Both the position numbers and the translations under genes were made by a program. Source: Lysobacter sp. M2-1 (GTDB lineage: Bacteria > Pseudomonadota > Gammaproteobacteria > Xanthomonadales > Xanthomonadaceae). From it: a stretch of DNA of 64,000 nt. Location: assembly GCF_022662495.1 (NCBI RefSeq), contig NZ_JAKPBU010000001.1, forward strand, positions 434,001 to 498,000, written 5' to 3'. This document shows, piece by piece, positions 1 to 22,105 of this stretch. How positions within the stretch are numbered: the first letter of the stretch is position 1; the number at the start of each line of letters is the position of its first letter. The notes under the pieces are model-generated. The model made no database searches, was not told the DNA's origin, and saw only the letters and a list, made by a program, of their open reading frames with translations.

Positions 1-16
1 TCAGGCATTAGGCCCC
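1..16 (+). repeat. attC site, right end only (cut by window edge)
   Basis: The window opens with TCAGGCATTAGGC, the right (R') end of an attC site like those further along. The rest lies outside the window, so the cassette array continues to the left. Confidence 0.6.
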
Positions 17-35
17 AGAGGAAGAAGACCGCACC

Positions 36-584
36 TTGAACAACCCGCGCTTTTACGTGATCACCGGCGCTTCCGGAGCCGGCAAGTCCACCCTGTTGAA
101 GGCGCTTGGCGATCTGGGCTACTCCGTCGTCCCCGAGGTCGCCCTCACTCTCGTGCAGGAGCAAGAGCAGTGTGGAGGGGACCTCTTCCCATGGACCAAT
201 CTTCAAGCGTTCATGGACGAAGTCGTTGTGAGAAACGTCAAGGCCTACGACGCGGCTCAGGCGTTGCCGCCGCCCGTGTTCTTCGATCGCGCAATCCCCG
301 AATGCCTGGGGCACATGCGGCTGCTTGGTCTGGAACTGAAGGCCGCGCATGAAGCGGCATCGGGGCAGCGCCGTTATGCCAACACGGTGTTTGTGGCAGA
401 ACCCTGGCCGGAGATCTATGTCTGCGATCGCTGGCGCCGTGCGCCATTCGACCGCGCGGCGCGCTCGTTCGAGCCGACCGTGGCTGCTTACGCTGAAGCA
501 GGCTATGACACCTGTGTTGTCCCCAGGGTGCCGGTCGAAGAGCGGGTTGCATTCGTTCTCCGGCAGCTTGAAGCTGGCGCCTGA
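36..584 (+). CDS. AAA-type predicted ATPase (cassette gene)
   Basis: The 182-residue protein has a Walker A P-loop (GASGAGKS, residues 11-18) near its N-terminus and resembles the small predicted ATPases of COG3911, whose substrate is unknown. I chose the TTG start because a purine-rich GAGGAAG lies about 10 bases upstream and no ATG precedes the P-loop. The TGA stop sits inside the left core (CCTGAC) of the following attC, as expected for a compact integron cassette. The partner and the reaction beyond NTP binding cannot be read from the sequence. Confidence 0.8.
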   Translation: MNNPRFYVITGASGAGKSTLLKALGDLGYSVVPEVALTLVQEQEQCGGDLFPWTNLQAFMDEVVVRNVKAYDAAQALPPPVFFDRAIPECLGHMRLLGLELKAAHEAASGQRRYANTVFVAEPWPEIYVCDRWRRAPFDRAARSFEPTVAAYAEAGYDTCVVPRVPVEERVAFVLRQLEAGA

Positions 585-639
585 CAGTTCTTCCAAGCCG
601 AGCCCGCTTCGCGGCACGGCTTAACTCAGGCGCCAGGCG
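579..639 (+). repeat. attC site 2
   Basis: This runs from CCTGAC (580-585) through TTCTTCCAAGCCGAG and CCGCTTCGCGG to CACGGCTTAACTCAGG and GCCAGGC (632-638). The arms are complementary, as in an attC hairpin. The left end contains the stop codon of the upstream ATPase gene. Confidence 0.85.
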
Positions 640-659
640 CCACGAGTTCCCTGCCACGC

Positions 660-1013
660 ATGACCGGGCCAAAGGCTATGAGCAACGTCCATCCTGTTTT
701 TTGCGCCATCTACCGCTGGCGCCTGCATCCGGGGGCCGAGCAGGCGTTCATGCGGGCCTGGTCGCGGATTACCCAGTTGCTGGTGACCGAGCGGGGCTCA
801 TTGGGCTCACGCCTGCATCGTGGCCCGGACGACATCTGGTACAGCTACACCCAGTGGCCATCGGCCGAGGCGAAGGCGGAAGGTCTGGCGCGGCCATCGG
901 TGGATGCCGAGGCCTGGCAGCAGCTGCGCGCTGCGATTGCCGAGACCTTGCCGGAGCTGGTGCTTGAGCCGGTGTATGACTTTCTGGTGCCGCTGCCGCG
1001 GCGTGATGGCTGA
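660..1013 (+). CDS. Antibiotic biosynthesis monooxygenase (ABM) domain protein
   Basis: The 117-residue protein (111 if ATG 678 is used) has the ABM/dimeric alpha-beta barrel pattern: an early FCAIYRWRLHPGAEQAF strand-helix, a GSLGSRLHR strand and a C-terminal LEPVYDFLVPL strand. Members are usually small dimeric quinol or heme-like monooxygenases; no substrate can be inferred here. Neither start has a strong Shine-Dalgarno sequence. It follows attC site 2 directly and overlaps the next gene by 8 bases, so this cassette appears to carry two coupled genes. The last 14 codons recur in decayed form near 1642. Confidence 0.75.
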   Translation: MTGPKAMSNVHPVFCAIYRWRLHPGAEQAFMRAWSRITQLLVTERGSLGSRLHRGPDDIWYSYTQWPSAEAKAEGLARPSVDAEAWQQLRAAIAETLPELVLEPVYDFLVPLPRRDG

Positions 1014-1536
1014 CATGCTGGCTATCCATAAATATCGCCATAGCGACTTGCCGGCCAAGCGGAGTGACGAGCTGAGGCTGCTTGCGAACAATGAATTCGA
1101 TCAGTTTCCAATCGTTCGCCAGACCGTTTGGACCACTCCGGACTGGTCGTTTCTCGGCATGGACGAGCACAATCTTGCATGCTTCTACAACCTTGTGGAG
1201 CGCGTCGTCCGTTTTGACGACCAGCCGGTTGAGATCGTCGGGCTCAACAATCTTGTCACGGCTCCGGGTTACAAGAGCCGCGGCTTGGCGTCTGAGTTGC
1301 TCAGGAGCACCGAAGCAGAGTGGTTCACAACGTTGAAAGCCAGGTATGGCTTGCTACTCTGCGCCGACCATCTGATTCCATTTTATGCGCGGCTGGGTTG
1401 GCAGCGCGTTTCATCGGAGGTTCGCTACTCTCAGCCCGAAAGAAAGCATGTATGGACGGCCAACTGCATGGTGCTCAGCCCAGCACGAGAGCGCGTCGAG
1501 CCACATGTGATCGACCTTTGCGGTTTGCCGTGGTAG
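1006..1536 (+). CDS. GNAT family N-acetyltransferase (cassette gene)
   Basis: The 176-residue protein has the GNAT core: a beta-4 strand VEIVGLNNLVTAPGYKSRGLASELL, in which YKSRGLAS is the acetyl-CoA pyrophosphate loop, followed by ADHLIPFYARLGW, typical of motif B. The acceptor is unknown; related integron-borne GNATs are often called aminoglycoside acetyltransferase-like, but nothing here proves that. ATG 1006 overlaps the upstream stop (1011-1013); ATG 1015 is an alternative. It lies between the ABM gene and a degraded attC. Confidence 0.8.
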   Translation: MADMLAIHKYRHSDLPAKRSDELRLLANNEFDQFPIVRQTVWTTPDWSFLGMDEHNLACFYNLVERVVRFDDQPVEIVGLNNLVTAPGYKSRGLASELLRSTEAEWFTTLKARYGLLLCADHLIPFYARLGWQRVSSEVRYSQPERKHVWTANCMVLSPARERVEPHVIDLCGLPW

Positions 1537-1543
1537 CGACGCG

Positions 1544-1605
1544 GCCTGACAGTGCATTCAAGCCAACGCCTGCGGCGTGGCCACCCCACTTCTGAAGGGT
1601 CAGGT
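1544..1605 (+). repeat. attC site 3, degraded right arm
   Basis: The left half is good (CCTGAC 1545-1550, GCATTCAAGCC, GCCTGCGGCG). The right arm is eroded (GGCCACCCCACTTCTGAAG) before GGTCAGG at 1598-1604. Confidence 0.6.
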
Positions 1606-1641
1606 TCATTTACCTAGAGCAGAAGTGTTTCTGACACCGCC

Positions 1642-1683
1642 ATTTATGACTTTCTGGTTGCGCTGCGGCGCCGTGACGCCTGA
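1642..1683 (+). pseudogene. Remnant of the 3' end of an ABM monooxygenase gene
   Basis: Fourteen codons ending in TGA read IYDFLVALRRRDA. They match the end of the ABM gene at 660-1013 (VYDFLVPLPRRDG), with a 14-base identical DNA core (TATGACTTTCTGGT). The TGA is followed by GACGAGGCATAAC. This looks like the tail of a second, otherwise deleted ABM cassette. Confidence 0.6.
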
Positions 1684-1947
1684 CGAGGCATAACGGGCGC
1701 TGGCCCTTCGACTTCGCGCCTTCGGCGCTACGCTCAGGGCGAACGGGGCTGGGGTGTGTGGCGCTGCAGTGGCGCTGGTGGGCGTGTGCATGCGCACCGG
1801 GTGCGTGCGGCTTGCGGGATCGGGCATGGCGTAAGGGCATTCGCGGCCGAGGCCGCTCCCACGGGGGCGATGTGTGGATAGGGGCGAAGATCGCCCCCAC
1901 CCCAACCCTCCCCCGCAAGCGAGAGAGGGTGACAGGCATTGCTGCGG
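1684..1947. other. Gene-free stretch made of interspersed repeats
   Basis: Besides repeat A, it holds a second unit around 1839-1870 (CATTCGCGGCCGAGGCC-GCTCCCACGGGGGC) and a third around 1890-1930 (CCCACCCCAACCCTCCCC-CGCAAGCGAGAGAGGG). Both are repeat styles common in this family. No credible gene is present; reading frames here have repeat-derived low-complexity products. Confidence 0.55.
1702..1748. repeat. Dispersed repeat A (PERSA-GAKSKG type), copy 1
   Basis: The unit GGCCCTTCGACTTCGCGCC-TTCGGCGCTACGCTCAGGG-CGAACGGG recurs at about 4455 and 6896. Read in reverse it gives the spurious peptide PVRPERSAEGAKSKG, a signature seen widely in Xanthomonadaceae intergenic regions. It is probably a non-coding interspersed repeat. 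Confidence 0.75.
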
Positions 1948-2883
1948 TCAGCGCGAGGCGGCGTGCTCCGGCTCGCCGCATTCGATAGCCGCCGCTGCAT
2001 CGCTGCGCGTGCGCAGCAGACGCCATTTCAGGTTGACGCCGAGCGTGCCGAGCACGATCAGGGCCAGGCCCGCGCCCTGCAGCAGGCCCAGCGCCTGGCC
2101 ATAGAGCAGGTAGTCGAGCAGCAGGGCCACGCCCGGATACACGAACGCGATGACCGCCAGCGTGCCCACCGGCAGGCGTGGATAGGCCGAGTACATCAGC
2201 ACGTAGCACACGCCGCTGTGGATCAGCCCCAGCCCGGCCAGCCACCACCAGTGCGCGCCGGGGACCGCGGCGGCGGCGATGTCGGCGAACGGCGCCAGCA
2301 GCACGATGCCGACCACACACTGCACCAGCACCACCGCCAGCGGGCGTTGCCGGCTGATGCGGCGCGACATCATCAGCGACGCGCCGGCCAGCAGGGCGGC
2401 GCCGAAGGTCAGGGCGATGCCGAACAGATAGCCGGCATCGGCCTCGCGCCACAAGCGCTGCGGATCTGCCGAGAGCAGCACGCCGACGAAGGCCAGCGCC
2501 GACCATGCGATGTCCACGGCGCGCGTGCGCTCACCGTAGAACAGCGCGGCGAACGCCAGCATGGCGAACGGGAAGAAGTGGTAGACCATCGTGGCCACGC
2601 CGATGGACGAGCGCTCCATGCCGGCGAACAGCAGCACCCAGTTCAGCACCAGCAGCACGCCGCTGATCGCCGCCGCACGCAGCAGCGCGACATCGCGCCA
2701 CAGGTCCTGCAGCAGGCCGCGCGACCAGCCCCAGGCCAGCAGGAATAGGCTGCCGAACACGCAGCGGAAGAACACCGCCGTCACCGGGTCCTGGCCGCTC
2801 TCGTGCACGAACACGCCGACCGAGCCAATCAGGACTTCGGCCAGCAGCAGCTGGATCAGGGCGGTGCGGGTTTCGCCAGGCAT
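1948..2883 (-). CDS. EamA/DMT-family transporter
   Basis: The 311-residue integral membrane protein has about ten hydrophobic segments in two repeated halves, the drug/metabolite transporter layout. It is predicted to export or import a small metabolite across the inner membrane. I start it at MPGETRTALIQ rather than an upstream ATG that would add a non-membrane extension overlapping the regulatory gap. It is divergent from a MocR-type regulator, an arrangement seen where a MocR protein controls an EamA exporter. It is not a cassette gene: opposite strand and no attC at either edge. Confidence 0.85.
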   Translation of the reverse strand: MPGETRTALIQLLLAEVLIGSVGVFVHESGQDPVTAVFFRCVFGSLFLLAWGWSRGLLQDLWRDVALLRAAAISGVLLVLNWVLLFAGMERSSIGVATMVYHFFPFAMLAFAALFYGERTRAVDIAWSALAFVGVLLSADPQRLWREADAGYLFGIALTFGAALLAGASLMMSRRISRQRPLAVVLVQCVVGIVLLAPFADIAAAAVPGAHWWWLAGLGLIHSGVCYVLMYSAYPRLPVGTLAVIAFVYPGVALLLDYLLYGQALGLLQGAGLALIVLGTLGVNLKWRLLRTRSDAAAAIECGEPEHAASR

Positions 2884-2934
2884 GGAGTGGTGCGCCGGGG
2901 AGTAAGGGAGCGTGTAGCGTGGACCTGCGCAGCC

Positions 2935-2976
2935 GACCAGTACAGTTTCAGATACCATCGAATTTGACCAGTACAG
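2935..2976. promoter_or_regulatory. Putative MocR operator: two direct GACCAGTACAG repeats
   Basis: GACCAGTACAG occurs exactly at 2935-2945 and 2966-2976, 31 bp apart (about three helical turns, same face), inside the 107-bp gap between the divergent EamA and MocR genes. Directly repeated boxes with such spacing are typical of MocR/GabR-family binding sites. GATACCA lies between them. Confidence 0.6.
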
Positions 2977-2990
2977 ATGTGGAGGCCGGC

Positions 2991-4415
2991 ATGTCGACGC
3001 AAACGCTGTACGAACGCGTCGCCACGCACCTGGGCGAGCAGATCCGCCGCGGCGTGCTGCGCGCGGGCGAGCGCATGCCCTCGCTGCGCCAGCTGGGCCG
3101 CGACCAGGGCGTGAGCGTTTCCACCGCGGTCGAGGTCTACGCGCAGCTGGAACGCCAGGGCCTGCTGGAAGCGCGCCCGCGCTCGGGCTATTTCATCCGC
3201 GCGATGCCGGCACCCGGTGCGGTGGGAGCCCGCGCGCCCGCGCGACTGGCGCGCACGCCGCAGCCGGTGCGCCAGCCGGAACTGCTGTGCGTGCCCGAGG
3301 AACTCACGCGCAAGGCGCGCATGGCCTTGCATTCGGCCACGCCGGCGCCGGCGCTGCTGCCGGGTGCGGCGTTGCACAGCGCGCTGCAGCGGGTCATGCG
3401 CCGCGATCCGGACGCGGCGGTGCGTTACGCCGCGGCCGAAGGCGTGGCCGACCTGCGCCTGCGCATCGCCGAGCGTTACGCGCGCGTGGGCGTGGACGTG
3501 GACCCGGAGGAAGTGGTGATCACCGCCGGCGCGATGGAAGCCATCAGCCTGGCGCTGCGCGTGGTGACTTCCCCCGGGGATGTGGTGCTGCTGGAAACGC
3601 CGACCTACCACGGGCTACTGCAGGCGGTGGCGGCGCTGGGCCTGCGGGTGCTGGAAGTGCCGACCGATGCCGAGTCGGGCATCGACGTGGCCTGCCTGGA
3701 GAAGCAGCTGGCGCGCCAGCCGGTGCGCGCCGCGATCCTGGTGCCCAACTTCAACAACCCGGCCGGCAGCCTGACCGGCGACGCCGGCAAGCGCGCGATC
3801 GTCGCGGCCTGCACCGCGCACGGTGTCACCTTGATCGAGGACGACCTGTATGCCGAGCTCGCCTTTTCCGGCGAACGCCCGCCGCCGCTGCGGCGCTTCG
3901 ACACGCGCGGCCAGGTCATCACCTGCGGCTCGTATTCGAAGATGCTCGCGCCGGGCCTGCGCGTGGGCTGGGCGCTGGGCGGGCGCTGGACGCAGCAGCT
4001 GCTGCACGCGAAAGGCTTCTCCACCGTGGCCACCGCAACGCTGCCGCAGCTGGCCATCGCCGATTACCTGGCGCGGCACGGGCTGGATCCTCACCTGCGC
4101 CGCCTGCGCCGCGCGCTGGCCGACAACGCACAGCGCAGCCGCGATGCGATCCTGCGCCACTGGCCGGCCGGCACCTGCGTAGGTGATCCAGGCGGCGGCC
4201 TGTCGCTATGGGTGCAACTGCCGCAGGAACTGGACGCGCGGAGCCTGTACGAAGCGGGGCTAGCGCGCGGCATCGGCAGCCTGCCCGGGGATCTGTTCTC
4301 GCTGCGCGGCGACCACCGCCACCACCTGCGCCTGAGCTTTGGCGTGCCATGGAGCGACGCGGTGGACGACGCACTGCGGACGCTGGGAAAGCTGGCTTCG
4401 ACGGCGGCGCGGTGA
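2991..4415 (+). CDS. MocR-family regulator (GntR HTH plus aminotransferase-like domain)
   Basis: The 474-residue protein has a GntR winged helix (about residues 5-70: LYERVATHLGEQIRRGVL, then MPSLRQLGRDQGVSVST and GLLEARPRSGYF) fused to a fold-type I aminotransferase domain. The latter includes PNFNNPAG and the Schiff-base lysine K317 in SYSKMLAPGLRVGW. Such proteins sense PLP or an amino-acid adduct and activate or repress a neighbouring gene. ATG 2991 has GGAGG 5 bases upstream. The divergent EamA gene is the likely target, with autoregulation through the repeats in the shared gap. Confidence 0.88.
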   Translation: MSTQTLYERVATHLGEQIRRGVLRAGERMPSLRQLGRDQGVSVSTAVEVYAQLERQGLLEARPRSGYFIRAMPAPGAVGARAPARLARTPQPVRQPELLCVPEELTRKARMALHSATPAPALLPGAALHSALQRVMRRDPDAAVRYAAAEGVADLRLRIAERYARVGVDVDPEEVVITAGAMEAISLALRVVTSPGDVVLLETPTYHGLLQAVAALGLRVLEVPTDAESGIDVACLEKQLARQPVRAAILVPNFNNPAGSLTGDAGKRAIVAACTAHGVTLIEDDLYAELAFSGERPPPLRRFDTRGQVITCGSYSKMLAPGLRVGWALGGRWTQQLLHAKGFSTVATATLPQLAIADYLARHGLDPHLRRLRRALADNAQRSRDAILRHWPAGTCVGDPGGGLSLWVQLPQELDARSLYEAGLARGIGSLPGDLFSLRGDHRHHLRLSFGVPWSDAVDDALRTLGKLASTAAR

Positions 4416-4454
4416 GATGCCGCAGCGCAAGGCCGTGGTGGCGGCCTGGAAGAG

Positions 4455-4505
4455 AGGGCCCTTCGACTTCGCGCCTGCGGCGCTACGCTCAGGGCGAACG
4501 GGGTC
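4455..4505. repeat. Dispersed repeat A, copy 2
   Basis: GGGCCCTTCGACTTCGCGCC-TGCGGCGCTACGCTCAGGG-CGAACGGGG, followed by TCTGAGGTATCCGTGGGGGC. That right flank is shared with copy 3 at 6896, so the repeat unit is longer than in copy 1. Confidence 0.75.
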
Positions 4506-4591
4506 TGAGGTATCCGTGGGGGCCAGGCGCAGCGCCGGAAATGGAGCGGGGATTTGTCGTGCGGTGGCTGGCGGCTCGCATGCGACACCGC

Positions 4592-4640
4592 CGGCGTATC
4601 GCTGTTGCATACTCGCCCGACACCGCGCCCAATGGCGCCA
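4592..4640. repeat. Dispersed repeat B (GATGCATAC...CCCAATGG type), diverged copy
   Basis: GCTGTTGCATACTCGCCCG-ACACCGCGCCCAATGGCGCCAGG aligns with copies at 7149, 9661 and 19578. Here, as in the others, the repeat stands directly upstream of a cassette gene start. Confidence 0.55.
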
Positions 4641-4667
4641 GGTCGTACAACCTGGTTCGGAGGGACC

Positions 4668-4949: not shown

Positions 4950-5333
4950 ATGCTGACCAACGTCATTCTCGGCACCAACGATCTGGACAGGGCGGAGGTC
5001 TTCTACGACGCCCTGCTGGCGCTCTTTGGCGCCAGGCAGGTCATGAAGAACGACCGGTCCATTCTCTGGAAGCCGGGCGATGGCGGCAGCGGCATTGCGG
5101 TGTGCACGCCGCATGACGGGCAACCGGCAACCCATGGCAATGGCACGATGGTTGGCCTCAGAGCCGGGTCCCTGGGGGAGCTGACCCGCATTTACGAGAC
5201 CGCCCTTCGCCTGGGTGGCTCTTGCGACGGCGCGCCGGGCGAGCGAAAGCCCGGAGTGCACGCTGCGTACTTCCGCGATCCGGACAAGAACAAGTTCGGG
5301 GTCTTTTTCGTCCAGCCGACTCCTGGCAATTAG
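4950..5333 (+). CDS. VOC-family protein (glyoxalase/dioxygenase fold, cassette gene)
   Basis: The 127-residue protein has the usual VOC N-terminus (VILGTNDLDRAEVFYDALLALFG) and the C-terminal FRDPDKNKFGVFFV strand. The usual metal ligands appear absent: Asn stands where His usually opens the first strand, and Gly replaces the Glu of the NKFEV-type motif. A binding or immunity role is therefore as likely as catalysis. AGGAGG at 4937-4942 gives a strong ribosome site. It is one of several VOC, GNAT and ABM genes typical of cassette cargo. Confidence 0.8.
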   Translation: MLTNVILGTNDLDRAEVFYDALLALFGARQVMKNDRSILWKPGDGGSGIAVCTPHDGQPATHGNGTMVGLRAGSLGELTRIYETALRLGGSCDGAPGERKPGVHAAYFRDPDKNKFGVFFVQPTPGN

Positions 5334-5381
5334 TTCAAGCCGAGACCGCTCCGCGGCTTGGTTCGATTCACGCGTCAGACC
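5322..5381 (+). repeat. attC site 5
   Basis: TCCTGGCAATTAGTTCAAG, then CCGAGACCGCTCCGCGGC, then TTGGTTCGATTCACGCGTCAG. The centre and both arms are recognisable; the left core has become CCTGGC. Confidence 0.75.
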
Positions 5382-5428
5382 GCACTTCCAAGTCGTATCG
5401 CATTCGAATACTTCGAGGAGACCTAGAA

Positions 5429-6145
5429 ATGACGATCACCAGTCCGGAAGCGGATCAGATCAGGGCGGCCAGGCTCGCTGGCGCCATGTACCTCATCACT
5501 ATGGGCACCGGGATCTTTGGCCAATCGTTCGTCCGGGGCTCCCTGCTGGTGCGTGGCGACGCCACGCAGACCGCGCTGAACATCATCGAGTCCGAGCGCT
5601 TGTTCCGCGTCGGCATCGCTACCGATCTGATCACGTTCACCGGTGTCGTGGTGCTGATCTGGGCCCTCTACGTCCTGCTCAGACCCGCCGGCAAGAACCT
5701 CGCCTTGCTGGCTGTGCTATTCCGGCTGGTCGAGGTAGCGGTCCACTATGTTGCGGTCCTTTTCAGCCTGAGCGCCCTCGTGCTTCTCAGCGGAGCCGAC
5801 TATTTGGCGCCACTCGGCGAGGATCAACTGCACGCCCTGGCACGGGTTGCCCTCAACACTCAAGGCGCCGGATTGAACCTTGGATTCGTACTTCTTGGCC
5901 TGGGGTCGGCTGCCTTCGCCTACCTGTTCCTCAGATCGCGCTATGTGCCGAAAATCCTGGCGGGCTGGGGCGTGTTTGCGTCGTTGCTGCTGAGCGCATC
6001 GGCGATCGCTGTGATTCTTTTCCCCGCCGTCGGGCGATTTGTACTGGCCGCCATGGTTCCCATGTTCATCTATGAGGTGACACTCGGCTTCTGGCTGCTG
6101 CTGAAGGGAGCAAAGATCAGGCCCGACTCTACGAGCGCGGCCTGA
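5429..6145 (+). CDS. DUF4386 family membrane protein (cassette gene)
   Basis: The 238-residue protein has about six transmembrane helices and the DUF4386 N-terminal style (RAARLAGAMYLITMGTGIFGQ). Function unknown. GAGGAG lies 8 bases before ATG 5429. The stop TGA is inside CCTGAC of attC site 6, and attC site 5 lies upstream, so this is a clean single-gene cassette. Confidence 0.8.
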   Translation: MTITSPEADQIRAARLAGAMYLITMGTGIFGQSFVRGSLLVRGDATQTALNIIESERLFRVGIATDLITFTGVVVLIWALYVLLRPAGKNLALLAVLFRLVEVAVHYVAVLFSLSALVLLSGADYLAPLGEDQLHALARVALNTQGAGLNLGFVLLGLGSAAFAYLFLRSRYVPKILAGWGVFASLLLSASAIAVILFPAVGRFVLAAMVPMFIYEVTLGFWLLLKGAKIRPDSTSAA

Positions 6146-6230: not shown

Positions 6231-6731
6231 ATGAAGTCATTCCAATGTTTGATTATCGCGGCTGCTTTGTTACTGGTTGCACGCACTGGATACGCTCAGG
6301 AATCGCCCGTTGTCGCTCCTGATCCGGAGCTTGCAGGGACCTTCGCCGAGTACGCCAAGGCAGCTGAGCTGTTCTATGACGGCAAGCCCGATGCGGTGAA
6401 AAAGCTCTGGTCACACGGAGACGACGTGACGCTCTCCGGGGCGGCAGGCGGTCAGACAGCGAAAGGCTGGAAGAACGTCAGCGAACGGCTTGACTGGGCC
6501 AGCTCCCAGTTCTCCAGGGGATCAAAAGCAGTCGAGTTGATTCAGCAGACGGTGAGCGGCGACTTTGCCTATGTCGTCCAGTACGAGCACATTCTCTTCT
6601 ATCCTCCCGGGCAGTCGAAGCAGTCCAAAAGAGACTATCGGGTGACCACGATCTTCAGACGTGAGCCGGAGGGTTGGCGCGTCACGCACCGTCATGCGGA
6701 TACCCTCTTGAAACGAGAGGCCATCAAATAG
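6231..6731 (+). CDS. Secreted NTF2-like (SnoaL/DUF4440) protein (cassette gene)
   Basis: The 166-residue protein has a signal peptide (about residues 1-22, ending TGYAQ) followed by one NTF2-like cone domain (WKNVSERLDWASSQF in the middle, FRREPEGWRVTHRHAD near the end). It is predicted periplasmic. Members bind small molecules or act as lyase or isomerase relatives; no substrate can be assigned. A second secreted NTF2-like cassette gene follows at 7256. Confidence 0.8.
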   Translation: MKSFQCLIIAAALLLVARTGYAQESPVVAPDPELAGTFAEYAKAAELFYDGKPDAVKKLWSHGDDVTLSGAAGGQTAKGWKNVSERLDWASSQFSRGSKAVELIQQTVSGDFAYVVQYEHILFYPPGQSKQSKRDYRVTTIFRREPEGWRVTHRHADTLLKREAIK

Positions 6732-7144: not shown

Positions 7145-7205
7145 ATCCATGGCTGATGCATACCCCGAGCGCACGCTGCCCAATGGATCGAATAGACGTT
7201 AGGCA
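7145..7205. repeat. Dispersed repeat B, copy ending in a canonical attC core
   Basis: CCATGGCTGATGCATAC starts the unit, and CCCAATGG lies near its end. It then runs into GACGTTAGGCAC, with GTTAGGC at 7198-7204. Either the repeat is the right half of a different attC type or it has replaced the left part of one. Confidence 0.6.
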
Positions 7206-7751: not shown

Positions 7752-7816
7752 CAGGCCGCACGCAATTCCGATCGCGCGGCAGCAGGGCGCGATCAACTCA
7801 CTGAAACTCCGCCCAA

Positions 7817-10497: not shown

Positions 10498-10500
10498 CTC

Positions 10501-11883: not shown

Positions 11884-11884
11884 C

Positions 11885-12063: not shown

Positions 12064-12065
12064 CG

Positions 12066-12124: not shown

Positions 12125-12127
12125 ATC

Positions 12128-13434: not shown

Positions 13435-13451
13435 ATATACAGTAAGTATAT
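13435..13451. promoter_or_regulatory. Putative TetR operator (ATATAC-N5-GTATAT)
   Basis: A perfect inverted repeat with 6-bp arms and a 5-bp centre lies 18 bases upstream of ATG 13470, in the 166-bp gap between tetR and the membrane protein gene. Its AT-rich sequence stands out in this GC-rich region and overlaps where a -10 element would be. Confidence 0.6.
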
Positions 13452-13469
13452 TCAATACGAGATGCGGAC

Positions 13470-13847: not shown

Positions 13848-13877
13848 CAGGTAGGCCGGCCCGCTGTGCCAGCGTCC

Positions 13878-14819: not shown

Positions 14820-14963
14820 CGGTATTCGGATACCGCGACCCGGGTTGAAGGCATCCGCACCACGCTACCGCCCCGGCGTTGACAGCCCAGATCATTGGGC
14901 AGAGTGTGCTGGTTGCGGCGCGGCGATCCTGTCCCGCGCCTGCCGACCGCGGAGGCCACTCCC

Positions 14964-16475
14964 ATGCAAGACAACGGAACCTGCAAGTACGACAACATCC
15001 TGGGGACGGTCGGGAATACGCCGATCGTACGGCTGACCAAGCTCGCGCCGCCGCATGTGAACTTGTTCGCCAAGATCGAGGCGTTCAACCCCATGGGCTC
15101 GGTCAAGGACCGGCTGGCATTGGGCATCATCGAGGACGCCGAGCGTCGCGGCACGTTGTCGCCAGGGCAGACGGTGATCGAGGCGACCAGCGGCAACACC
15201 GGCATCGGTCTGGCGATGGTGTGCGCGGTGAAGGGGTATCCGCTGGTCGTGACCATGGCGGAGAACTTCAGCGTTGAGCGGCGCAGGATGATGCGCTTCC
15301 TGGGTGCGAAGGTGGTGCTGACGCCGGCCTCGCTGAAAGGCAGCGGCATGCTGGCCAAGGCGGTGGAGCTGGCGAATGCGCATGGTTGGTTCCTGTGCCG
15401 CCAGTTCGACAATGAGGCCAATGCCGACATGCACTCGCGCACGACGGCGCCGGAAATCCTGACCGCCTTCGAAGGCGAACGGCTCGACTACTTCGTCACC
15501 GGTTACGGCACCGGCGGCACGTTGAAGGGCGTCGCGCGCGTACTGAAGGCGCAGCGCCCGGACACGAACATCGTGGTCTGCGAGCCGGACAACTCACCGA
15601 TCCTGGGCAGCGGCATTGCACAGGCGCGCGATGCGGACGGCACGCCGAGCGAGAGTCATCCCAGTTTCCGTCCGCACCTGATGCAGGGCTGGTCCCCCGA
15701 TTTCATTCCCAAGCTGACCGAGGATGCGGTGGCGATGAAGCTGGTTGATCGCATCCTACCGATCAACGGCGCAGACGCGGTCCGGCTGGCGCGCGAACTC
15801 GCGCAGCGCGAAGGCATCTTCGTCGGCATCAGCGCCGGCGCCACGCTCGCGGGTGCATTGCAGGTCTGCGCATCGGCGCCCGACGGTGCAACGGTGTTGT
15901 GCATGCTGCCGGACACCGGCGAGCGCTATCTCAGCACGCCGTTGTTCGAAGGCGTCGCCGCGGAAATGTCCGCCGAGGAAATGGAGATCTCGCGCTCGAC
16001 GCCGGGGGCCCGGTTCGACGCGCCGCCACCGGCGCCACCGGCGACAAAATCGGCGAGCCCTGTCCCTGCGCCTGCGGTCTCGGCCGAGGTGGAAGCGTTC
16101 GTCGCCCAGGTGCTCGCCGATCGCGAACAGCCGTTGGTGATGTTTGCGCTGGAATGGTGCGAGTTCTGCTGGTCGCTGCGCAAGCTGTTCGCGCAGTGCG
16201 GCATTCCGTATCGATCCGTCGACCTTGACTCGACCGCGTACCAGCGCGACGACCGCGGCGGGCAGATCCGTGCCGTGCTCACCGCGCGCACGGGCAGCAA
16301 GACCATCCCGCAGGTCTTCGTTGGTGGCGAGTACATCGGCGGCTGCACGGAGACGCTCGACGCATTCAGGGAAGGCCGACTGCAGGACTTGTTCCGTGAC
16401 CACGGCGTTGGCTTCGACGAGAACGTGCGGATTGACCCCTACACCTTGTTGCCGGGCTGGTTGCATCCGCGCTGA
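14964..16475 (+). CDS. Cysteine synthase fused to a C-terminal glutaredoxin
   Basis: The 503-residue protein begins with a fold-type II PLP enzyme of the O-acetylserine sulfhydrylase/CBS family: NTPIVRL, PLP lysine K48 in NPMGSVKDR, SGNTGIGLA and GTGGTLKGV. It extends to about residue 330. A Pro/Ala-rich linker follows (about 350-375), then a glutaredoxin with active site C399-EF-C402 and the GSKTIPQVFVGGEYIGGCTE cis-Pro/GSH region. It would make cysteine from O-acetylserine and sulfide; the glutaredoxin suggests redox control or a glutathione-linked sulfur donor (inference). GGAGG lies 8 bases before the ATG. Confidence 0.85.
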   Translation: MQDNGTCKYDNILGTVGNTPIVRLTKLAPPHVNLFAKIEAFNPMGSVKDRLALGIIEDAERRGTLSPGQTVIEATSGNTGIGLAMVCAVKGYPLVVTMAENFSVERRRMMRFLGAKVVLTPASLKGSGMLAKAVELANAHGWFLCRQFDNEANADMHSRTTAPEILTAFEGERLDYFVTGYGTGGTLKGVARVLKAQRPDTNIVVCEPDNSPILGSGIAQARDADGTPSESHPSFRPHLMQGWSPDFIPKLTEDAVAMKLVDRILPINGADAVRLARELAQREGIFVGISAGATLAGALQVCASAPDGATVLCMLPDTGERYLSTPLFEGVAAEMSAEEMEISRSTPGARFDAPPPAPPATKSASPVPAPAVSAEVEAFVAQVLADREQPLVMFALEWCEFCWSLRKLFAQCGIPYRSVDLDSTAYQRDDRGGQIRAVLTARTGSKTIPQVFVGGEYIGGCTETLDAFREGRLQDLFRDHGVGFDENVRIDPYTLLPGWLHPR

Positions 16476-16684
16476 GCGGTCGTTCCGGCGCGATCTCGGG
16501 GACCCTTGTTGCCTAGCGCGGGTCATCGCGTGCGTTTGAAAACGTGACGCGCATTGCAGGTTTCGAATCTCACGGCCTTTCGGCTGTCCGGCAGTGAAAT
16601 GCGCTGGCGTTGTCCCCGGTGTCGGCGCTACCCCCCGTTGTCGCTGCGCTGCGCCGGCTTCCCCCGATGCCGAGGACCTGAGTC

Positions 16685-19504
16685 ATGACTACCCATTCAA
16701 CGTTCCGGCGCGGTGCCCGCTGGTGGGCCGCGATCGGCTTGGTTGCGTTGCTGGCATTGGCGGCGCACGCATTCGCGACCTGGATGGCGGGACCTGCGCC
16801 CGCGAGCAGGCTGGACGCCGGCGCGGTCGATGCATCGCAGGGCGGCTCGGGCGCGGCGGGAGCGGCTCCCCGCCTGGTGCTGGTGGCGCTGCAGGAGAAC
16901 GGCGGCGCTTCGCCCGACGGGATGTGGCAGACCCTGCCGGCGGTGCAGCTGCCCGATCGGTTCCCCGCGCCGACGGCCTTCGTGCCGCTGACGCTCAACG
17001 AGCAGATGCTGGAAACGCGTCTGCGCGGCACGCCGCGCGAGACCTTCGGGCCGATTCCGCCGCAGACGCAGATCTATCTGCCGCGCGCGAGCGGCGGCTT
17101 CGTGCAGATTTCGCTCGCGCAGAGCCAGCTGTTGGAGCCAGGCCTGGCCAGCCAGTACCCGCAGATCAGGACCTATGTGTTCGAGGACGAGCGCGAAGGG
17201 TTCACCGGGCATATCACGGTGGGCACGCGCGGCGTGTTCATTTCGGGCCAGACCGACGACGGCATCCTGCGGGTGGAACCGGTGGAAACCGCGGACGGCC
17301 GCGTGTACCTGAGCTATCGCGACCAGGACCGCACCGACGGCGCCAACGACTTCCACCAGGATCACGACGATCACGAACCGGTACCGGTGCCGCGCTTCTC
17401 GGCCCAGCTGGTGGCGCAGATCCAGGCCAACGCCATGGTGGAAGCCGGCACCCAGCTGCGCATCTACAGGCTGGCGGCTTCGACCACGGGCGAGTTCTTC
17501 CAGGCGCGCGACGCGGGCGGCGGGCAGGCGGATGTGCTGTCGTCGATCGTGGCCGACGTGGCCGGCGCCAATGCGGTGTTCGAGCCCGAGGTGAGCGTGC
17601 GGCTGGTGGTGGCCGATGCCAGCGAGGACGTGATGTACAGCGACCCGGACACCGACCCCTTCGACAACACCCAGAGCCCGTGCACGCTGCGCGACGCCAA
17701 CCGCGACAACAACAAGGTGGCGCTGAACGATGCGGACTACGACATCGGCTTCCTGTTCGCCACGCGTGCGGGCGGCGGCGCCAGCGGCTGCGCATGGTTC
17801 GTGGTCTGCCTGACCACCGACGACACCCTGCACAAGGGACGCGGCGCGGGGCAGATGGGCAACAACGGCATGAACAGCGCCAGCGGGCTGCTCGCGCATG
17901 AGGTCGGGCACCAGCTCGGCGCGCGGCATACCTTCACCGGTTCGGCCGGCAGCTGCACGCTGGTCGAGTTCAATGCCGGCGACAGCGAAAGCGGCTACGA
18001 GCCGGGCAGCGGCACCACCCGCATGTCCTACAACGGCAACTGCGGCACCGACGACGTCGATACCTCGGTGGTCGGCGCGGGCTCGTACTTCCATTCGCGC
18101 AGCTTCGACGAGATCGTGACCAATGTGTTCTCCGGCGACGGCGCGACCTGCGGCACGCTGGTGAACACCACCAACTCGCCGCCCAGCGTGGATGCGGGCG
18201 CGGACTACACGATCCCGCGGCAGACGCCGTTCGAACTCGACGGCTCGGCGACCGATGCCGACGTGCTCACCTACAACTGGGAGCAGTACGACCGCGCAGT
18301 GACGCAGCGGCCGATCAATACCGATCCGGGCGATGGACCGATCGTCCGCTCGGTGCCGCCGGGCGCGTCCAGCGCGCGCATCATCCCGAACCTGCAGGAC
18401 CTGCTCGACGGCATCACCCGCGCCGGCGAGATCCTGCCGCAGGTGGATCGCGAGCTGAACTTCCGCCTGATCGCGCGCGACAACCGCATGGGCGGTGGCG
18501 GCGTGGCCTACGACAGCATGCAGATCCAGGTGGTAGGCGACCCGTTCTTCATCCTCTCGCCCAACAGCGGCTCGCTGGCCGCAGGTTGCAGCGTGCCGCT
18601 GACCTGGCAGGTGGGCGGCGGCTCGGTGGCGCCGCAGGTGAGCGCGCTGTTCTCCAGCGACGGCGGGCAGAACTTCACCACCCCGCTGGTCGGGCCGACG
18701 GCGAACGACGGGGCGTCTTCCTTCGTGGTGCCCTGTTCGCTGGGTTCGGACAACCGGATCAAGCTGCAATCGGTGGACAACATCTTCTTCGACATCAACG
18801 ATGAGGACCTGACCGTCACCAACACGCCGCCGAGCGTGGAGGTGAGCACCGCTGGCGGTGCGGTCGACAACGCCTGCGAGTTCACCGTGCAGTTCACGGC
18901 CACGGCCACCGATACCTGCGGCGTGCTGGCCGGCGATGTCGATGTGGACCTGATCAAGGGCGCCAACAACTTCACCCTGGGCACGCCGACGATCAATGTG
19001 CAGCAGGTCTCGTCCACGCAGGTGGATGTGAGCGGCAGCGTGGTGGTGTCCGGCCTGCTCAGCTCGCCGGCGCAGCTCACGGTCAGCGTCACCGCGCAGG
19101 ACGCGTGCGGTGCATCGACCAACGATACCGCGGTGGCGCAGGTGGTCGACGACACGCCGCCCACGATCGCCGTCAGCCTGGATCCGGACCGGCTGTGGCC
19201 GCCCAACCACAAGATGGAACCGGTCTGGGCCACCGTGGTCGCCACCGACAACTGCCCGGTGGTGAACTACGCGCTGACCAGCATCATCAGCGACGAGCCC
19301 GACAATGGCGTGGCCGACGGCAATACCGTCGATGACATCCAGAATGCCGCGATCGGCACGCCCGACCTGCAGTTCGACCTGCGCGCCGAGCGTGCGGGCA
19401 ACGGCGACGGCCGCGTCTACACCGCCACCTACACGGCCGTGGATGGCTCTGGCAACGATGCGCAGGACTCGGCCACGGTCGAGGTGCCGAAGAACAACAA
19501 CTAG
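16685..19504 (+). CDS. Large secreted reprolysin-like zinc metallopeptidase
   Basis: The 939-residue protein has an N-terminal hydrophobic signal/anchor (about 14-34), a propeptide-like region, and a zinc site HEVGHQLGARH (residues 405-415), the HExxHxxGxxH pattern of metzincins; the Met-turn is probably RMSYNGNCG. The second half holds beta-sandwich repeats (SVDAGADYTIPRQTPFELDGSATDAD; LDPDRLWPPNHKMEPVWATV). It is probably exported and degrades protein outside the cell. It is the longest gene of the cassette region and shows no attC of its own. Confidence 0.85.
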   Translation: MTTHSTFRRGARWWAAIGLVALLALAAHAFATWMAGPAPASRLDAGAVDASQGGSGAAGAAPRLVLVALQENGGASPDGMWQTLPAVQLPDRFPAPTAFVPLTLNEQMLETRLRGTPRETFGPIPPQTQIYLPRASGGFVQISLAQSQLLEPGLASQYPQIRTYVFEDEREGFTGHITVGTRGVFISGQTDDGILRVEPVETADGRVYLSYRDQDRTDGANDFHQDHDDHEPVPVPRFSAQLVAQIQANAMVEAGTQLRIYRLAASTTGEFFQARDAGGGQADVLSSIVADVAGANAVFEPEVSVRLVVADASEDVMYSDPDTDPFDNTQSPCTLRDANRDNNKVALNDADYDIGFLFATRAGGGASGCAWFVVCLTTDDTLHKGRGAGQMGNNGMNSASGLLAHEVGHQLGARHTFTGSAGSCTLVEFNAGDSESGYEPGSGTTRMSYNGNCGTDDVDTSVVGAGSYFHSRSFDEIVTNVFSGDGATCGTLVNTTNSPPSVDAGADYTIPRQTPFELDGSATDADVLTYNWEQYDRAVTQRPINTDPGDGPIVRSVPPGASSARIIPNLQDLLDGITRAGEILPQVDRELNFRLIARDNRMGGGGVAYDSMQIQVVGDPFFILSPNSGSLAAGCSVPLTWQVGGGSVAPQVSALFSSDGGQNFTTPLVGPTANDGASSFVVPCSLGSDNRIKLQSVDNIFFDINDEDLTVTNTPPSVEVSTAGGAVDNACEFTVQFTATATDTCGVLAGDVDVDLIKGANNFTLGTPTINVQQVSSTQVDVSGSVVVSGLLSSPAQLTVSVTAQDACGASTNDTAVAQVVDDTPPTIAVSLDPDRLWPPNHKMEPVWATVVATDNCPVVNYALTSIISDEPDNGVADGNTVDDIQNAAIGTPDLQFDLRAERAGNGDGRVYTATYTAVDGSGNDAQDSATVEVPKNNN

Positions 19505-19520
19505 CGCGGTTCGGGGATGG

Positions 19521-19556
19521 AAAACGCCGCCGCCCCCTTGGGGCGGCGTTTTCTTG
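19521..19556 (+). terminator. Intrinsic terminator of the metallopeptidase gene
   Basis: AAAACGCCGCC pairs with GGCGGCGTTTT around a 10-base loop, 17 bases after the stop, and runs into TTTTCTTG. Confidence 0.85.
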
Positions 19557-19572
19557 TGGGGCTGAAACTGGC

Positions 19573-19635
19573 GGCCCATGGCTGATGCATACTTCGCGGC
19601 AGCCCGGCCCCGTCTCTGTTGGGTGTTGGCATTCT
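19573..19635. repeat. Dispersed repeat B, fourth copy
   Basis: GGCCCATGGCTGATGCATAC at 19574-19592 is identical to the 9.66-kb copy; it diverges after CTTCGCGGCAGCCCGGCC and ends near GGGTGTTGGC. It precedes the EthD cassette gene. Confidence 0.6.
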
Positions 19636-19710: not shown

Positions 19711-20019
19711 ATGGCGACACTTCTGGTTCTGTACAAGAACCCGACCGACCCCGCAGCCTTCGACCGCTACTATTTCTCTACCCACGTTCCGCTTGCCCGG
19801 AAAATTCCTGGCCTGCGCCGCTATGAAGTCAGCGCGGGACCTATCACCACGCCGCAAGGCGATGCGCCGTATCACCTGGTGGCAACGCTGAGCTTCGACT
19901 CTCTCGACGCGATACGGCAAGCGCTTGGTTCGCCAGAGGGACAGGCCACCGCTGGCGACCTGGGCAACTTCGCGCAGGCGGGTGTCGAGCTGCTGATGTT
20001 CGATTCCAAAGAGGCATGA
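19711..20019 (+). CDS. EthD family reductase-like protein (cassette gene)
   Basis: The 102-residue protein is of the EthD/dimeric alpha-beta barrel type: LLVLYKNPTDPAAFDRYYFSTHVPLARKIPGLRRYEV, with the characteristic HxPLAxxxPG. AAGGAG lies 8 bases upstream. Substrate unknown. attC site 15 follows after 40 bases. Confidence 0.85.
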   Translation: MATLLVLYKNPTDPAAFDRYYFSTHVPLARKIPGLRRYEVSAGPITTPQGDAPYHLVATLSFDSLDAIRQALGSPEGQATAGDLGNFAQAGVELLMFDSKEA

Positions 20020-20061
20020 CCCCCTGCATGGACTCGCGGACACTTGGCTCGCGCGCAGGCA

Positions 20062-20119
20062 CGCCTGACAATTCTTCCGGCCAAGCCGCTTCGCGAGGGC
20101 TCGGTTCGGGCATCAGACC
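20062..20119 (+). repeat. attC site 15
   Basis: CGCCTGACAATTCTTCCGGCC, AAGCCGCTTCGCGAGGGC, TCGGTTCGGGCATCAGACC. Confidence 0.82.
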
Positions 20120-20137
20120 TTAGAGGAACCCTTTCCC

Positions 20138-20548
20138 GTGCGTACCCTGATTGCTTCCGGCTCCCCGCTCGAGCCGCAGATCGGCTTCTCCCGTGCAGTC
20201 CGCGTGGGCAACATGCTGGCGGTCGCAGGCACTGCGCCCATCGCCCCCGATGGATCGGTGGCAGCGCCAGGGGATGTGTACGGCCAGACCAGGCGCTGCC
20301 TCGAGATCATTGCCACCGCCATCAGCGATGCCGGCCTGGGTCTGGACGATGTCATCAGGACCCGGATCATGCTCACCGACATCGGGACCTGGCGCGAGGC
20401 AGCCAGGGCGCATGGCGAGTCGTTCTCCGAGATCAGGCCCGCCTGCACGTTCGTGGAGGTGGCCCGCTTCATCGACCCAGGCTGGCTTGTGGAGGTAGAG
20501 GCCGACTGCGTCGTGCAGGAGCGCGCTGCGCAAGGATCCGAAGTCTGA
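20138..20548 (+). CDS. RidA/YjgF family protein (cassette gene)
   Basis: The 136-residue protein matches the Rid superfamily: FSRAVRVGNMLAVAGTAPI, DVYGQTRRCLEII, then RPACTFVEVARFIDPGWLVEVEADCV. The Arg in RPACTF corresponds to the carboxylate-binding Arg of active 2-iminobutanoate deaminases. GTG start with AGAGGA about 10 bases upstream. The TGA stop is in the left core of attC site 16. Confidence 0.86.
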   Translation: MRTLIASGSPLEPQIGFSRAVRVGNMLAVAGTAPIAPDGSVAAPGDVYGQTRRCLEIIATAISDAGLGLDDVIRTRIMLTDIGTWREAARAHGESFSEIRPACTFVEVARFIDPGWLVEVEADCVVQERAAQGSEV

Positions 20549-20604
20549 TCGTTCATTCGGGCCGAAGCCGCTTCGGAGCTCGGTGCAATCCAGGCGTTAA
20601 GCCC
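20542..20604 (+). repeat. attC site 16
   Basis: GTCTGATCGTTCATTCGGG, CCGAAGCCGCTTCGGAGC, TCGGTGCAATCCAGGCGTTAAGCC. The right core GTTAAGC fits the canonical GTTRRRY. Confidence 0.87.
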
Positions 20605-20613
20605 ATAGAAGAT

Positions 20614-21060
20614 ATGCGCACACTGAAAGCCGGCGCGCTGTATTTCGTCCTGGTCTTTGGGGCTGGGTTCGTGCTGGGCTCCATCCGCGTTCCCTTCCTG
20701 GTCCCGCGGCTCGGCGCGCGATTTGCCGAGCTCCTCGAGATGCCGGTCATGCTGGCGGTGGTTTTCATGGCGGCGCGTTACGTCATACGCCGCTACGCCC
20801 TGGCAGATCGCCGCACCCGATTGCTGATGGGGACGATCGCCCTTGTGCTTCTGGCATCGGCGGAGTTGTTGCTCGCCTTCCTGATGACTGGGGCCTCGCC
20901 GTCTGCGTACGTCGCGTCCCGCGACCCGGTCTCCGGTAGCGCCTTCTTGGCCATGCTCGTCCTGTTCGCCGTTCTGCCAGCCTTGCTGCCATCCGGCGCA
21001 GTGTCTGACAATCCGTTCAAGCCGAAGTCGGTTGGCGGCTCGGATTCGTTCAAACGTTAG
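20614..21060 (+). CDS. Membrane protein with attC-encoded C-terminus (cassette gene)
   Basis: The 148-residue protein has about four TM helices (LYFVLVFGAGFVLGSI; MPVMLAVVFMAARYV; LLMGTIALVLLASAELLLAFLM; SAFLAMLVLFAVLPALL). No family recognised. Translation continues through attC site 17: the final residues SDNPFKPKSVGGSDSFKR are attC-derived, and the TAG stop is formed by the right core GTTAGG itself. Confidence 0.75.
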   Translation: MRTLKAGALYFVLVFGAGFVLGSIRVPFLVPRLGARFAELLEMPVMLAVVFMAARYVIRRYALADRRTRLLMGTIALVLLASAELLLAFLMTGASPSAYVASRDPVSGSAFLAMLVLFAVLPALLPSGAVSDNPFKPKSVGGSDSFKR

Positions 21061-21064
21061 GTAG
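21002..21064 (+). repeat. attC site 17 (translated)
   Basis: TGTCTGACAATCCGTTCAAG, CCGAAGTCGGTTGGCGGC, TCGGATTCGTTCAAACGTTAGGT. The right core GTTAGGT is canonical. Confidence 0.85.
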
Positions 21065-21066
21065 CT

Positions 21067-21588
21067 ATGCGACATTACGGCAATCTGCTTTTAGTCCTGG
21101 CGCTTGTCCTGAGCCCCTTGACGCCTTTTACCGCCCGGGCTCAGACGATGGAACTGTCCGACGCAATTCACGGCAGAGTGGTGCAACTCTCCAAGGAGGG
21201 AGATCAGCGCGCCGAAGGGGGTCACTATCGGGCGGCCGTCGAGAAGTACATCGAGGCATTTGAACTTCTGCCAGAGCCGAAGACCGACTGGGAAGCTTGT
21301 ACTTGGCTGCTGACCGCGATCGGTGACGCGAATTTCAAATCCAGGAACTATGAGCACGCGCAGGCGGCTCTGACCGACGCCATGGGCTGCCCGGGTGCAA
21401 TCGGCAACCCCTTCATCCATCTGCGGCTTGGCCAGTCGCAGTTCGAGCTCGGCGATCTGCAACGGGCCAATGAGGAGTTGACCCGCGCCTACATGGGCGC
21501 CGGCAAGGATATCTTCGCGGAGGAAGATCCCAAGTATTTCTCACATCTCAAAACGGTGCTTCGGCCGCCTGCCAGTGGCGAGTGGTAG
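21067..21588 (+). CDS. Secreted TPR-like protein (cassette gene)
   Basis: The 173-residue protein has a signal peptide (about 1-25, ending ARAQT) followed by two or three TPR-like helix pairs (DQRAEGGHYRAAVEKYIEAFELLPEP; DANFKSRNYEHAQAALTDAM; LGQSQFELGDLQRANEELTRAYM). Probably periplasmic. The next attC is directly downstream. Confidence 0.78.
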   Translation: MRHYGNLLLVLALVLSPLTPFTARAQTMELSDAIHGRVVQLSKEGDQRAEGGHYRAAVEKYIEAFELLPEPKTDWEACTWLLTAIGDANFKSRNYEHAQAALTDAMGCPGAIGNPFIHLRLGQSQFELGDLQRANEELTRAYMGAGKDIFAEEDPKYFSHLKTVLRPPASGEW

Positions 21589-21590
21589 CC

Positions 21591-21652
21591 ATCTGGCGAT
21601 TCCTTCAAGCCGAAGCCACCTCGCGGCTCAGCGCAACTCAGACGTTAGGCTT
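21591..21652 (+). repeat. attC site 18 (last clear site)
   Basis: TCTGGCGATTCCTTCAAGC, CGAAGCCACCTCGCGGC, TCAGCGCAACTCAGACGTTAGGC. The right core GTTAGGC (21644-21650) is canonical. No later site was found. Confidence 0.85.
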
Positions 21653-21666
21653 CAACAGGTGACCAT

Positions 21667-22095
21667 GTGATCCAGTGGAGCAGTTCAACGGATGCAATCG
21701 ACTGGTCGGAGCTGTCCGAGATGTATCGGCTCGCTCCTCTCGGCAACAAATCCCCCGATTGGCTGGCAACCGCGTTCTCGAACAGCATGTTCAGGTTTTT
21801 TGCGCGGGACAACGGCGCGCTGGTCGCCGCCGGACGCGCCGTTGCCGACGGGGTCGATTGCTCCTACATCTGCGACATCGCCGTCCACCCCTCGCATCAG
21901 GGCCAGGGCCTGGGGCGTGATGTCATCCAGCGCCTCATCGCCGCATCCCAGGGGCACAGGAAGATCATCCTCTACGCCGTCCCGGGCAAAGAGGATTTCT
22001 ATCGCAGATTCGGGTTCCGCCGCATGAGAACGGCCATGGCCATATTCGAGAATGCCGGTCAGGCGGCTGCCAATGGCTATACCGATGAAGCCTGA
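21667..22095 (+). CDS. GNAT family N-acetyltransferase (last cassette-like gene)
   Basis: The 142-residue protein has a GNAT core with ICDIAVHPSHQGQGLGRDVIQRLI (acetyl-CoA loop QGQGLG) and KIILYAVPGKEDFYRRFGFRRM. GTG start just after attC site 18. Acceptor unknown. There is no attC between it and the next gene, whose start region overlaps it, so the array's right boundary is here. Confidence 0.82.
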   Translation: MIQWSSSTDAIDWSELSEMYRLAPLGNKSPDWLATAFSNSMFRFFARDNGALVAAGRAVADGVDCSYICDIAVHPSHQGQGLGRDVIQRLIAASQGHRKIILYAVPGKEDFYRRFGFRRMRTAMAIFENAGQAAANGYTDEA

Positions 22096-22105
22096 GCATT
22101 CCCCC

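Follow-up and report, generated by a model that had tools for sequence, protein, structure and literature searches.

Cassette runs headed by attI-like elements in Lysobacter sp. M2-1 as probable relics of satellite integron platforms

How a cassette array can stand in a genome far from any integron integrase gene (intI), and why it is interrupted by other genes, was the question raised by a 64,000-nucleotide stretch of Lysobacter sp. M2-1. This whole stretch, analysed here and called the window, corresponds to C1:434001-498000 (contig C1) in a 3.88 Mb draft genome of 12 contigs. The first-pass annotation, made from the letters alone, had described one array of about 19 cassette recombination sites (attC) with resident genes embedded in it, either an old chromosomal integron or a cluster of attC sites lacking an integrase (CALIN), and had placed the missing integrase just left of position 1. 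The reading favoured here, at a probability of about two in three, is that C1:427.8-455.7 kb holds old and decayed cassette runs, several of them headed by an attI-like element, which would be relics of satellite attI platforms served in trans.

attC sites and attI-like elements of the window

The repeats of the window, detected without any model, formed one family with attC features. The attC model R1 was built from 13 window sites; model R3, made to avoid the circularity of R1, was built from 12 attC sites beside intI on contig C6 and contained no window sequence. R3 recovered 13 window attC sites at E<=0.002 and the site at 12460 at E 0.036, and two further matches were minus-strand readings of the same palindromes. 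It had zero matches at E<=1 in the 22-64 kb part of the window, and no Rfam family matched the window sites. All sites belonged to a single family on the plus strand between positions 1 and 21,654, as in an array of one strand, and the array, whose first attC (C1:428541) lies some 5.5 kb beyond the left edge of the window, spanned C1:428.5-455.7 kb. In a hand-drawn gene table, a plus-strand gene ended inside or at most 60 bases before the site at 13 of 14 attC and started inside or at most 45 bases after it at 11 of 14, and genes and sites alternated as in cassettes. The claims of one attC family between plus-strand genes and of its tie to gene boundaries were thus borne out. The claimed number came down from about 19 to 15 to 17, because the candidates at 4911 and 7706 were too degenerate for both R1 and R3. 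The supported sites were as follows.

1..17, plus strand, right end of an attC (whole site C1:433949-434017), 52.9 bits
574..642, plus strand, attC, R3 66.1 bits
1539..1609, plus strand, probable truncated attC, R3 E 0.48, R1 E 0.22
5316..5384, plus strand, attC, R3 50.5 bits
6135..6203, plus strand, attC, R3 47.8 bits
6741..6809, plus strand, attC, R3 75.9 bits
10434..10501, plus strand, attC, R3 39.7 bits
10841..10908, plus strand, attC, R3 29.0 bits
11278..11346, plus strand, attC, R3 48.2 bits
11817..11885, plus strand, attC, R3 49.2 bits
12061..12128, plus strand, attC, R3 30.1 bits
12460..12525, plus strand, degenerate attC, R3 18.6 bits
12600..12654, plus strand, possible truncated attC, R1 E 0.17, missed by R3
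20058..20122, plus strand, attC, R3 23.4 bits, E 0.0019
20538..20606, plus strand, attC, R3 39.1 bits
20998..21066, plus strand, attC, R3 46.3 bits
21586..21654, plus strand, attC, last of the array, R3 47.0 bits

A second repeat, D6, at positions 4587, 7138, 9650, and 19567, coincided with attI-like elements at 4601, 7152, 9664, and 19581, respectively, and similar sequence was held by the stretch between intI and its array on C6. The three attC-free blocks described in the first pass were real, and they ended at the elements 4601, 9664, and 19581; the fourth element lay at 7152. At the block ends, the gene of the next run started 79 to 349 bases past the element. Because the blocks ended at elements resembling the intI-adjacent attI and were followed at this distance by the next run, the window is better read as several attI-headed cassette runs in series (attI, cassettes, block, attI, cassettes) than as one interrupted array with resident genes in it. 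The elements and the blocks were as follows.

1610..4600, no strand assigned, first attC-free block, with an EamA transporter (minus) and a GntR/aminotransferase regulator (plus)
4601..4649, plus strand, attI-like element closing the first block, 78% identity over 81 nt to 9664, missed by window-free models
7152..7205, plus strand, attI-like element with intact GTTAGGC, 78% over 59 nt to 9664, window-free HMM 9.8 bits, E 0.26
7760..9663, second attC-free block, with a TPR protein (minus)
9664..9717, plus strand, attI-like element closing the second block, core GTC, R2 E 0.0075 in the whole-genome scan
12655..19580, no strand assigned, third attC-free block, including a PALP-glutaredoxin fusion and a Reprolysin-like metallopeptidase
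19581..19598, plus strand, partial attI-like element closing the third block, 94% over 32 nt to 9664, missed by window-free models

A first attI profile contained three window copies and was no proof for those copies. The attI model R2, with 52 positions and no window sequence, was therefore the relevant one; it combined the intI-adjacent attI of this genome with 20 from relatives. For the latter, 80 intI loci were fetched and 38 were examined for an upstream attI, which gave 32 HMM matches at E<=1, some of them weak; the 22 above 12 bits were aligned, and 20 entered R2. In the whole genome, R2 had eight matches at E<=1, and seven of these stood at heads of attC runs (C6:320505 and C1:915064, 431111, 443669, 2010659, 433140, and 427841, where C1:443669 is window element 9664). 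The eighth, C6:255202 (E 0.35), did not. Element 9664 and C1:431111 (E 2.2e-4) are thereby candidate attI sites. D6 as a chance match was rejected, since R2 found 9664 and its neighbours without any window sequence.

The elements at 431 kb, 7152, and 9664 had further leader sequence in common, which was nearly confined to the window region. A dispersed repeat was rejected as its source, since a 281-nt query matched only the window region, the C1:915 kb attI, and a single 30-nt stretch; intI remnants were rejected as well, with no protein similarity below E 1. By eye, a CATAC-type motif resembling a −10 box was present at all four window elements, and a TTGAC box was not clear.

The cassette genes of the window were as follows.

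36..584, plus strand, cassette gene with an AAA ATPase domain (AAA_28, E 1.6e-34)
678..1536, plus strand, two-gene cassette, antibiotic biosynthesis monooxygenase-like domain (678-1013) and GNAT acetyltransferase (1006-1536)
4950..5333, plus strand, cassette gene, glyoxalase-like
5429..6145, plus strand, cassette gene, DUF4386 membrane protein
6231..6731, plus strand, cassette gene, SnoaL-like
7256..7711, plus strand, cassette gene, DUF4440/SnoaL-like, after attI-like element 7152
9743..12463, plus strand, several cassette genes (open frames) after attI-like element 9664
19711..20019, plus strand, cassette gene with an EthD domain
20138..20548, plus strand, cassette gene, RidA/endoribonuclease L-PSP family
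20617..21060, plus strand, cassette gene, no Pfam match
21067..21588, plus strand, cassette gene, TPR protein
21667..22095, plus strand, GNAT acetyltransferase after the last attC, probably a cassette with a lost attC, R3 finding no attC after it

Two cassettes had a 5′ gene fragment in common (6823-6863 and 11900-11940, 90% identity, repeat D15), the first copy preceding the 7152 element. In the third block, the gene at 14964-16475 encoded a cysteine synthase-like protein dependent on pyridoxal phosphate (PLP) and fused to a C-terminal glutaredoxin domain. An intergenic repeat, GCCCTTCGACTTCGCGCC..., was found near the blocks at window positions 1703, 4458, and 6901.

The attC cores of the window region were strongly altered. 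In counts made with a sequence profile from the 13 window sites, 2 of the 21 attC in the window region had kept both core triplets, whereas elsewhere in the genome both were kept by 10 of 12 sites beside intI, by 23 of 27 at C1:915 kb, and by all 5 sites in the stretch of the C1:2010 kb array that was read. Intact cores are a sign of function and are not needed for an array to count as a CALIN. A stricter positional count pointed in the same direction, with the R'' AAC kept in 3 of 20 sites and the R' GTT in 7 of 20. The stem cells of the window attC could pair in 77.6% of cases, compared with at most 40.2% when slid, and covariation in the stems did not exceed that of shuffled alignments. At alignment position 10, A had changed to G (TAAC to TGAC) in 13 of the 15 aligned window sites, where the mean was 2.9 changes per position, and the pairing partner had changed from T to C in 7 of the 15. 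Because some cassette genes end with a TGA stop inside this changed core box, the position-10 change may be due in part, and only in part, to drift of the overlapping stop codon, the genome being GC-rich. As judged from its sequence, the window cluster is old and decayed, dead or dying.

The integrase and the other arrays of the genome

Across the genome, the integron integrase profile had a single match above the family cut-off. It lay at C6:320727-321668, in an open reading frame of 348 residues whose closest named relatives were from Pseudoxanthomonas, Luteimonas, and Lysobacter (Lysobacteraceae/Xanthomonadaceae). Four partial matches at C1:1.44 and 1.81 Mb were all below the cut-off. A sensitive tblastn search of the window and of the adjoining 60 kb on the left gave no match to IntI with an E value under 1. 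The integrase that the first pass had predicted to the left of position 1 was therefore not there, with nothing above the cut-off there or elsewhere on C1, and the statement that the window itself lacks an integrase gene was upheld by both profile and tblastn. With at least two attC and no intI near, the window region is a CALIN, one of the two options of the first pass, and intI adjoining attI, as in a complete integron, was absent from it. From the contig geometry of the draft assembly, the array should lie at least about 0.5 Mb from intI.

A genome-wide R1 scan scored 150 of 2954 candidates, in which weak attC may be missed. Besides the window array, it found attC next to intI on C6, at C1:915-932 kb, C1:2011-2021 kb, and C2:157-160 kb, and on the minus strand at C1:407-415 kb; C10 had two sites, C1:642 kb had a single one, and a few further sites were weak. 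The minus-strand locus (C1:407434-415408, loci L008 and L009), about 20 kb left of the window, contained five attC in the opposite orientation. The attI profile and HMM scans found no attI at the arrays of C1:407-415 kb and C10. About 2 kb from the C10 pair, C10:116038-116508 (L016) showed weak, tyrosine-recombinase-like similarity to IntI (25% identity, E 1e-4).

Of intI, the attI at C1:915 kb retained no more than 37 nt that matched the beginning of the gene at 81%, a match that is weak taken alone. The C1:915 kb and C6 arrays had cassettes in common, with identities of 99.2% (361 nt) and 96.5% (628 nt). Cassette sharing of C1:2010 kb reached 86%, and the window region had one old match only, at 74%, to C1:915 kb.

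attI sites apart from intI in the family

R2 was applied to 149 genomes of the family, with attI taken at E<=0.001, and 127 intI matches were found at E<=1e-30. An attI was called orphan when no detected intI in the right orientation lay within 900 bp. The scan gave 131 attI in 77 of the 149 genomes, 66 beside a detected intI and 65 orphan; because this count depends on the threshold and on the stricter filter of Infernal used for over 40 genomes, weak attI like most window copies will have been missed elsewhere. The orphans were found in 51 genomes, and 40 of these had an intI match elsewhere. In a control of 150 genomes of the phylum, R2 matched in three; each belongs to this family, and one is the genome of the window.

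The 63 orphans outside the genome of the window were fetched together with 3 kb of upstream and at most 5 kb of downstream sequence. By the sequence profile made from the 13 window sites, forward attC lay downstream of 53 of the 63, and reverse-orientation attC downstream of none. Among the 52 loci offering 1 kb or more of sequence, 50 had forward attC, and in 46 the distance was no more than 1.2 kb. The covariance model R1 also matched 53 of the 63 loci, not wholly the same 53. Because 61 of the 63 had no attC within 3 kb upstream, the orphans were array heads and not internal elements; attC were found there in two. Trace of intI was absent from 47 of the 63, and 39 of these headed attC, in 32 genomes, 29 of them with intI elsewhere. 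The attC of such arrays were well kept, with both cores intact in 109 of 136 in orphan arrays without a tblastn match to intI; in seven genomes, the main arrays had 93 of 99 intact and their orphan arrays 79 of 86. In the single-contig genomes G060, G086, G103, and G107, 330 to 950 kb separated the orphan from intI. Such putative satellite platforms are widespread in the family. In genome G012, an orphan attI (L131) had attC on both sides as in the window; it lay about 20 kb from intI across contig ends if the molecule is circular.

An upstream TTGAC box was conserved relative to the crossover. Of the 63 orphans, 43 had it, 41 of these between positions −62 and −66, as did 26 of the 35 intI-adjacent attI from genomes that also held an orphan. 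When the search windows were shifted by 300 to 2000 nt, the counts were 0, 0, 1, 0, and 0 of 63. The box is probably the −35 box of a cassette promoter.

Orphan and main arrays shared cassettes at up to 99.8% over 458 nt in G086 and at 98.1% over 472 nt in G103, so that near-identical cassettes (96-99.8%) were found in an orphan and an intI-borne array in three genomes, M2-1 included. Weaker sharing was found in G139 (86%), G085 (85%, its orphan having an intI trace), and G107 (71%); G172 and G060 had no cassette common to both arrays at the threshold. Matches between different genomes reached 78.5% at most. The orphan attI best resembled the intI-adjacent attI of its own genome in 23 of 46 cases and of its own genus in 37 of 46, where about 1.3 and 3.8 were expected, respectively.

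The distal leader was present in 30 of 65 sites, 17 of the 65 having it without the intI block, and 32 of the 65 had neither. In G172 (L103), the orphan and the intI-adjacent attI were near-identical over 191 nt and then diverged abruptly (boundary near −190). A fixed left boundary there, or a defined mobile unit, is not claimed, since the edge was sharp in one near-identical pair and 32 of the 65 sites had neither leader nor intI block. By eye, an element like GATAnCACC or GTTAYRCC opened the shared leader at about −190 in several orphans and also occurred in the first intI codons. A single insertion hotspot was rejected, as the upstream genes mostly differed between genera.

Origin of the integrase-less arrays

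The favoured reading proposes that one integrase, encoded elsewhere, would work in trans on attI copies that lie at further loci of the chromosome, where it would load and exchange cassettes; the likely cassette promoter in the attI leader would express them, and the window cluster would once have worked as such satellite platforms, before its cores decayed. A broader form of this idea, that Lysobacteraceae integrons are distributed, with one integrase and several scattered attI-promoter platforms that carry their own arrays, are selected, and are restocked by exchange, the window being their burial ground, is put forward tentatively, at slightly short of even chances.

Several results weigh against the favoured reading. 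Three of the four window elements rest mainly on likeness to 9664, and 4601 and 19581 were missed by the window-free models. When the block genes were searched in other genomes, relatives of the metallopeptidase were found in six and of the TPR gene in one, all at 39% identity or less; both genes tested were thus not conserved in relatives and gave no proof of a chromosomal origin of the blocks. Among the 51 genomes with an orphan attI, 11 had no intI match at all. Of seven other genomes compared, two shared no cassettes and three shared them only at 71-86%, and a common outside pool or homologous recombination could be the source of the shared ones. The orphans mostly adjoined different genes in different genera. 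Finally, 16 of the 63 orphans kept some intI 5′ similarity by tblastn or HMM.

Because of these 16, some orphans probably are integrons that lost intI in place. Extended to all attI-headed arrays, the window included, this account makes each a complete integron deprived of its integrase, with attI a relic and nothing acting in trans. The decayed attC of the window agree with it as well, and it is a serious contender, although we consider it somewhat improbable. It does not account for the 47 orphans without an intI trace, for the promoter box and attC cores kept in orphan arrays, or for the recent cassette sharing in three genomes, and several attI within 26 kb would require several integrons lost side by side.

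Known attI pieces away from intI suggest another origin for the blocks. In delta-attI-type gene cassettes of class 1 and 2 integrons, some of them functional, an attI piece replaces attC at the 3′ end of the cassette (PMC12901181), and the order attC, genes, attI recurred at three blocks. Blocks with their attI as outsized cassettes of this type, inserted serially into one array, are nevertheless unlikely: at about 2 to 7 kb and with genes on both strands they are unlike cassettes, and orphans elsewhere in the family had, with two exceptions, no attC upstream. In the accessible text of that source the attI piece belongs to cassettes of mobile integrons and does not head a separate array, and its cases indicate that attI pieces can travel. 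Duplication, cassette movement of the delta-attI type, and intI deletion are all possible as the origin of the attI copies.

Off-target insertion of cassettes at chromosomal attG-like sites by a distant integrase, described as a CALIN route (PMC8618304, as far as its text was accessible), is slightly less probable still. The arrays without a detected attI at C1:407-415 kb and on C10 are in keeping with it, and for such runs it could still hold. It is disfavoured for attI-headed arrays, whose heads match the 52-position attI model (e.g., 9664 and C1:431111); many orphans also carry TTGAC near −63, and nearly half of the sites hold the distal leader. A single intI-borne array split by rearrangement or by wrong assembly of the 12-contig draft is very improbable, given distinct attI copies at different loci and separate orphans in the four single-contig genomes.

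The satellite reading sets the window region beside several known systems. It has the attC and attI family of the Lysobacteraceae sedentary chromosomal integron, complete on C6 of this genome, and differs from it by the lack of intI, several attI-like elements, and decayed cores. It shares with CALINs the presence of at least two attC without intI near, and differs by the several attI-like elements that head its runs. The literature covered explains CALINs as integrons that have degraded, as rearranged fragments, or as products of off-target insertion (PMC9024848, PMC8618304). Xanthomonas, of the same family, likewise has integrase-less arrays away from intI, as CALINs at seven loci (PMC12444791); in the text available, attI was mentioned in the introduction, the methods, and the definition of attG, and no attI heads were described. 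One precedent was found, the Shewanella prophage M16-3, whose integrase-less CALIN is headed by an attI of the type of a nearby integron (PMC9892861, available in part). It is a single phage case, whereas the family here presents many dispersed chromosomal ones. No systematic report of attI-headed integrase-less arrays was found in the literature covered, which left out most subscription journals.

The candidate origins of integrase-less arrays are a lost integrase, rearrangement, and off-target insertion. The attI with a promoter-like box at many heads and the near-identical shared cassettes suggest that part of such arrays are likely working platforms and not debris. An attI model provides a simple test that is absent from the standard tool, IntegronFinder, by which attI outside class 1 goes undetected according to the part of its description available (PMC9024848). 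The prediction for the family is that one integrase serves several expression sites, and attI-headed platforms could explain the fixed CALIN loci of Xanthomonas.

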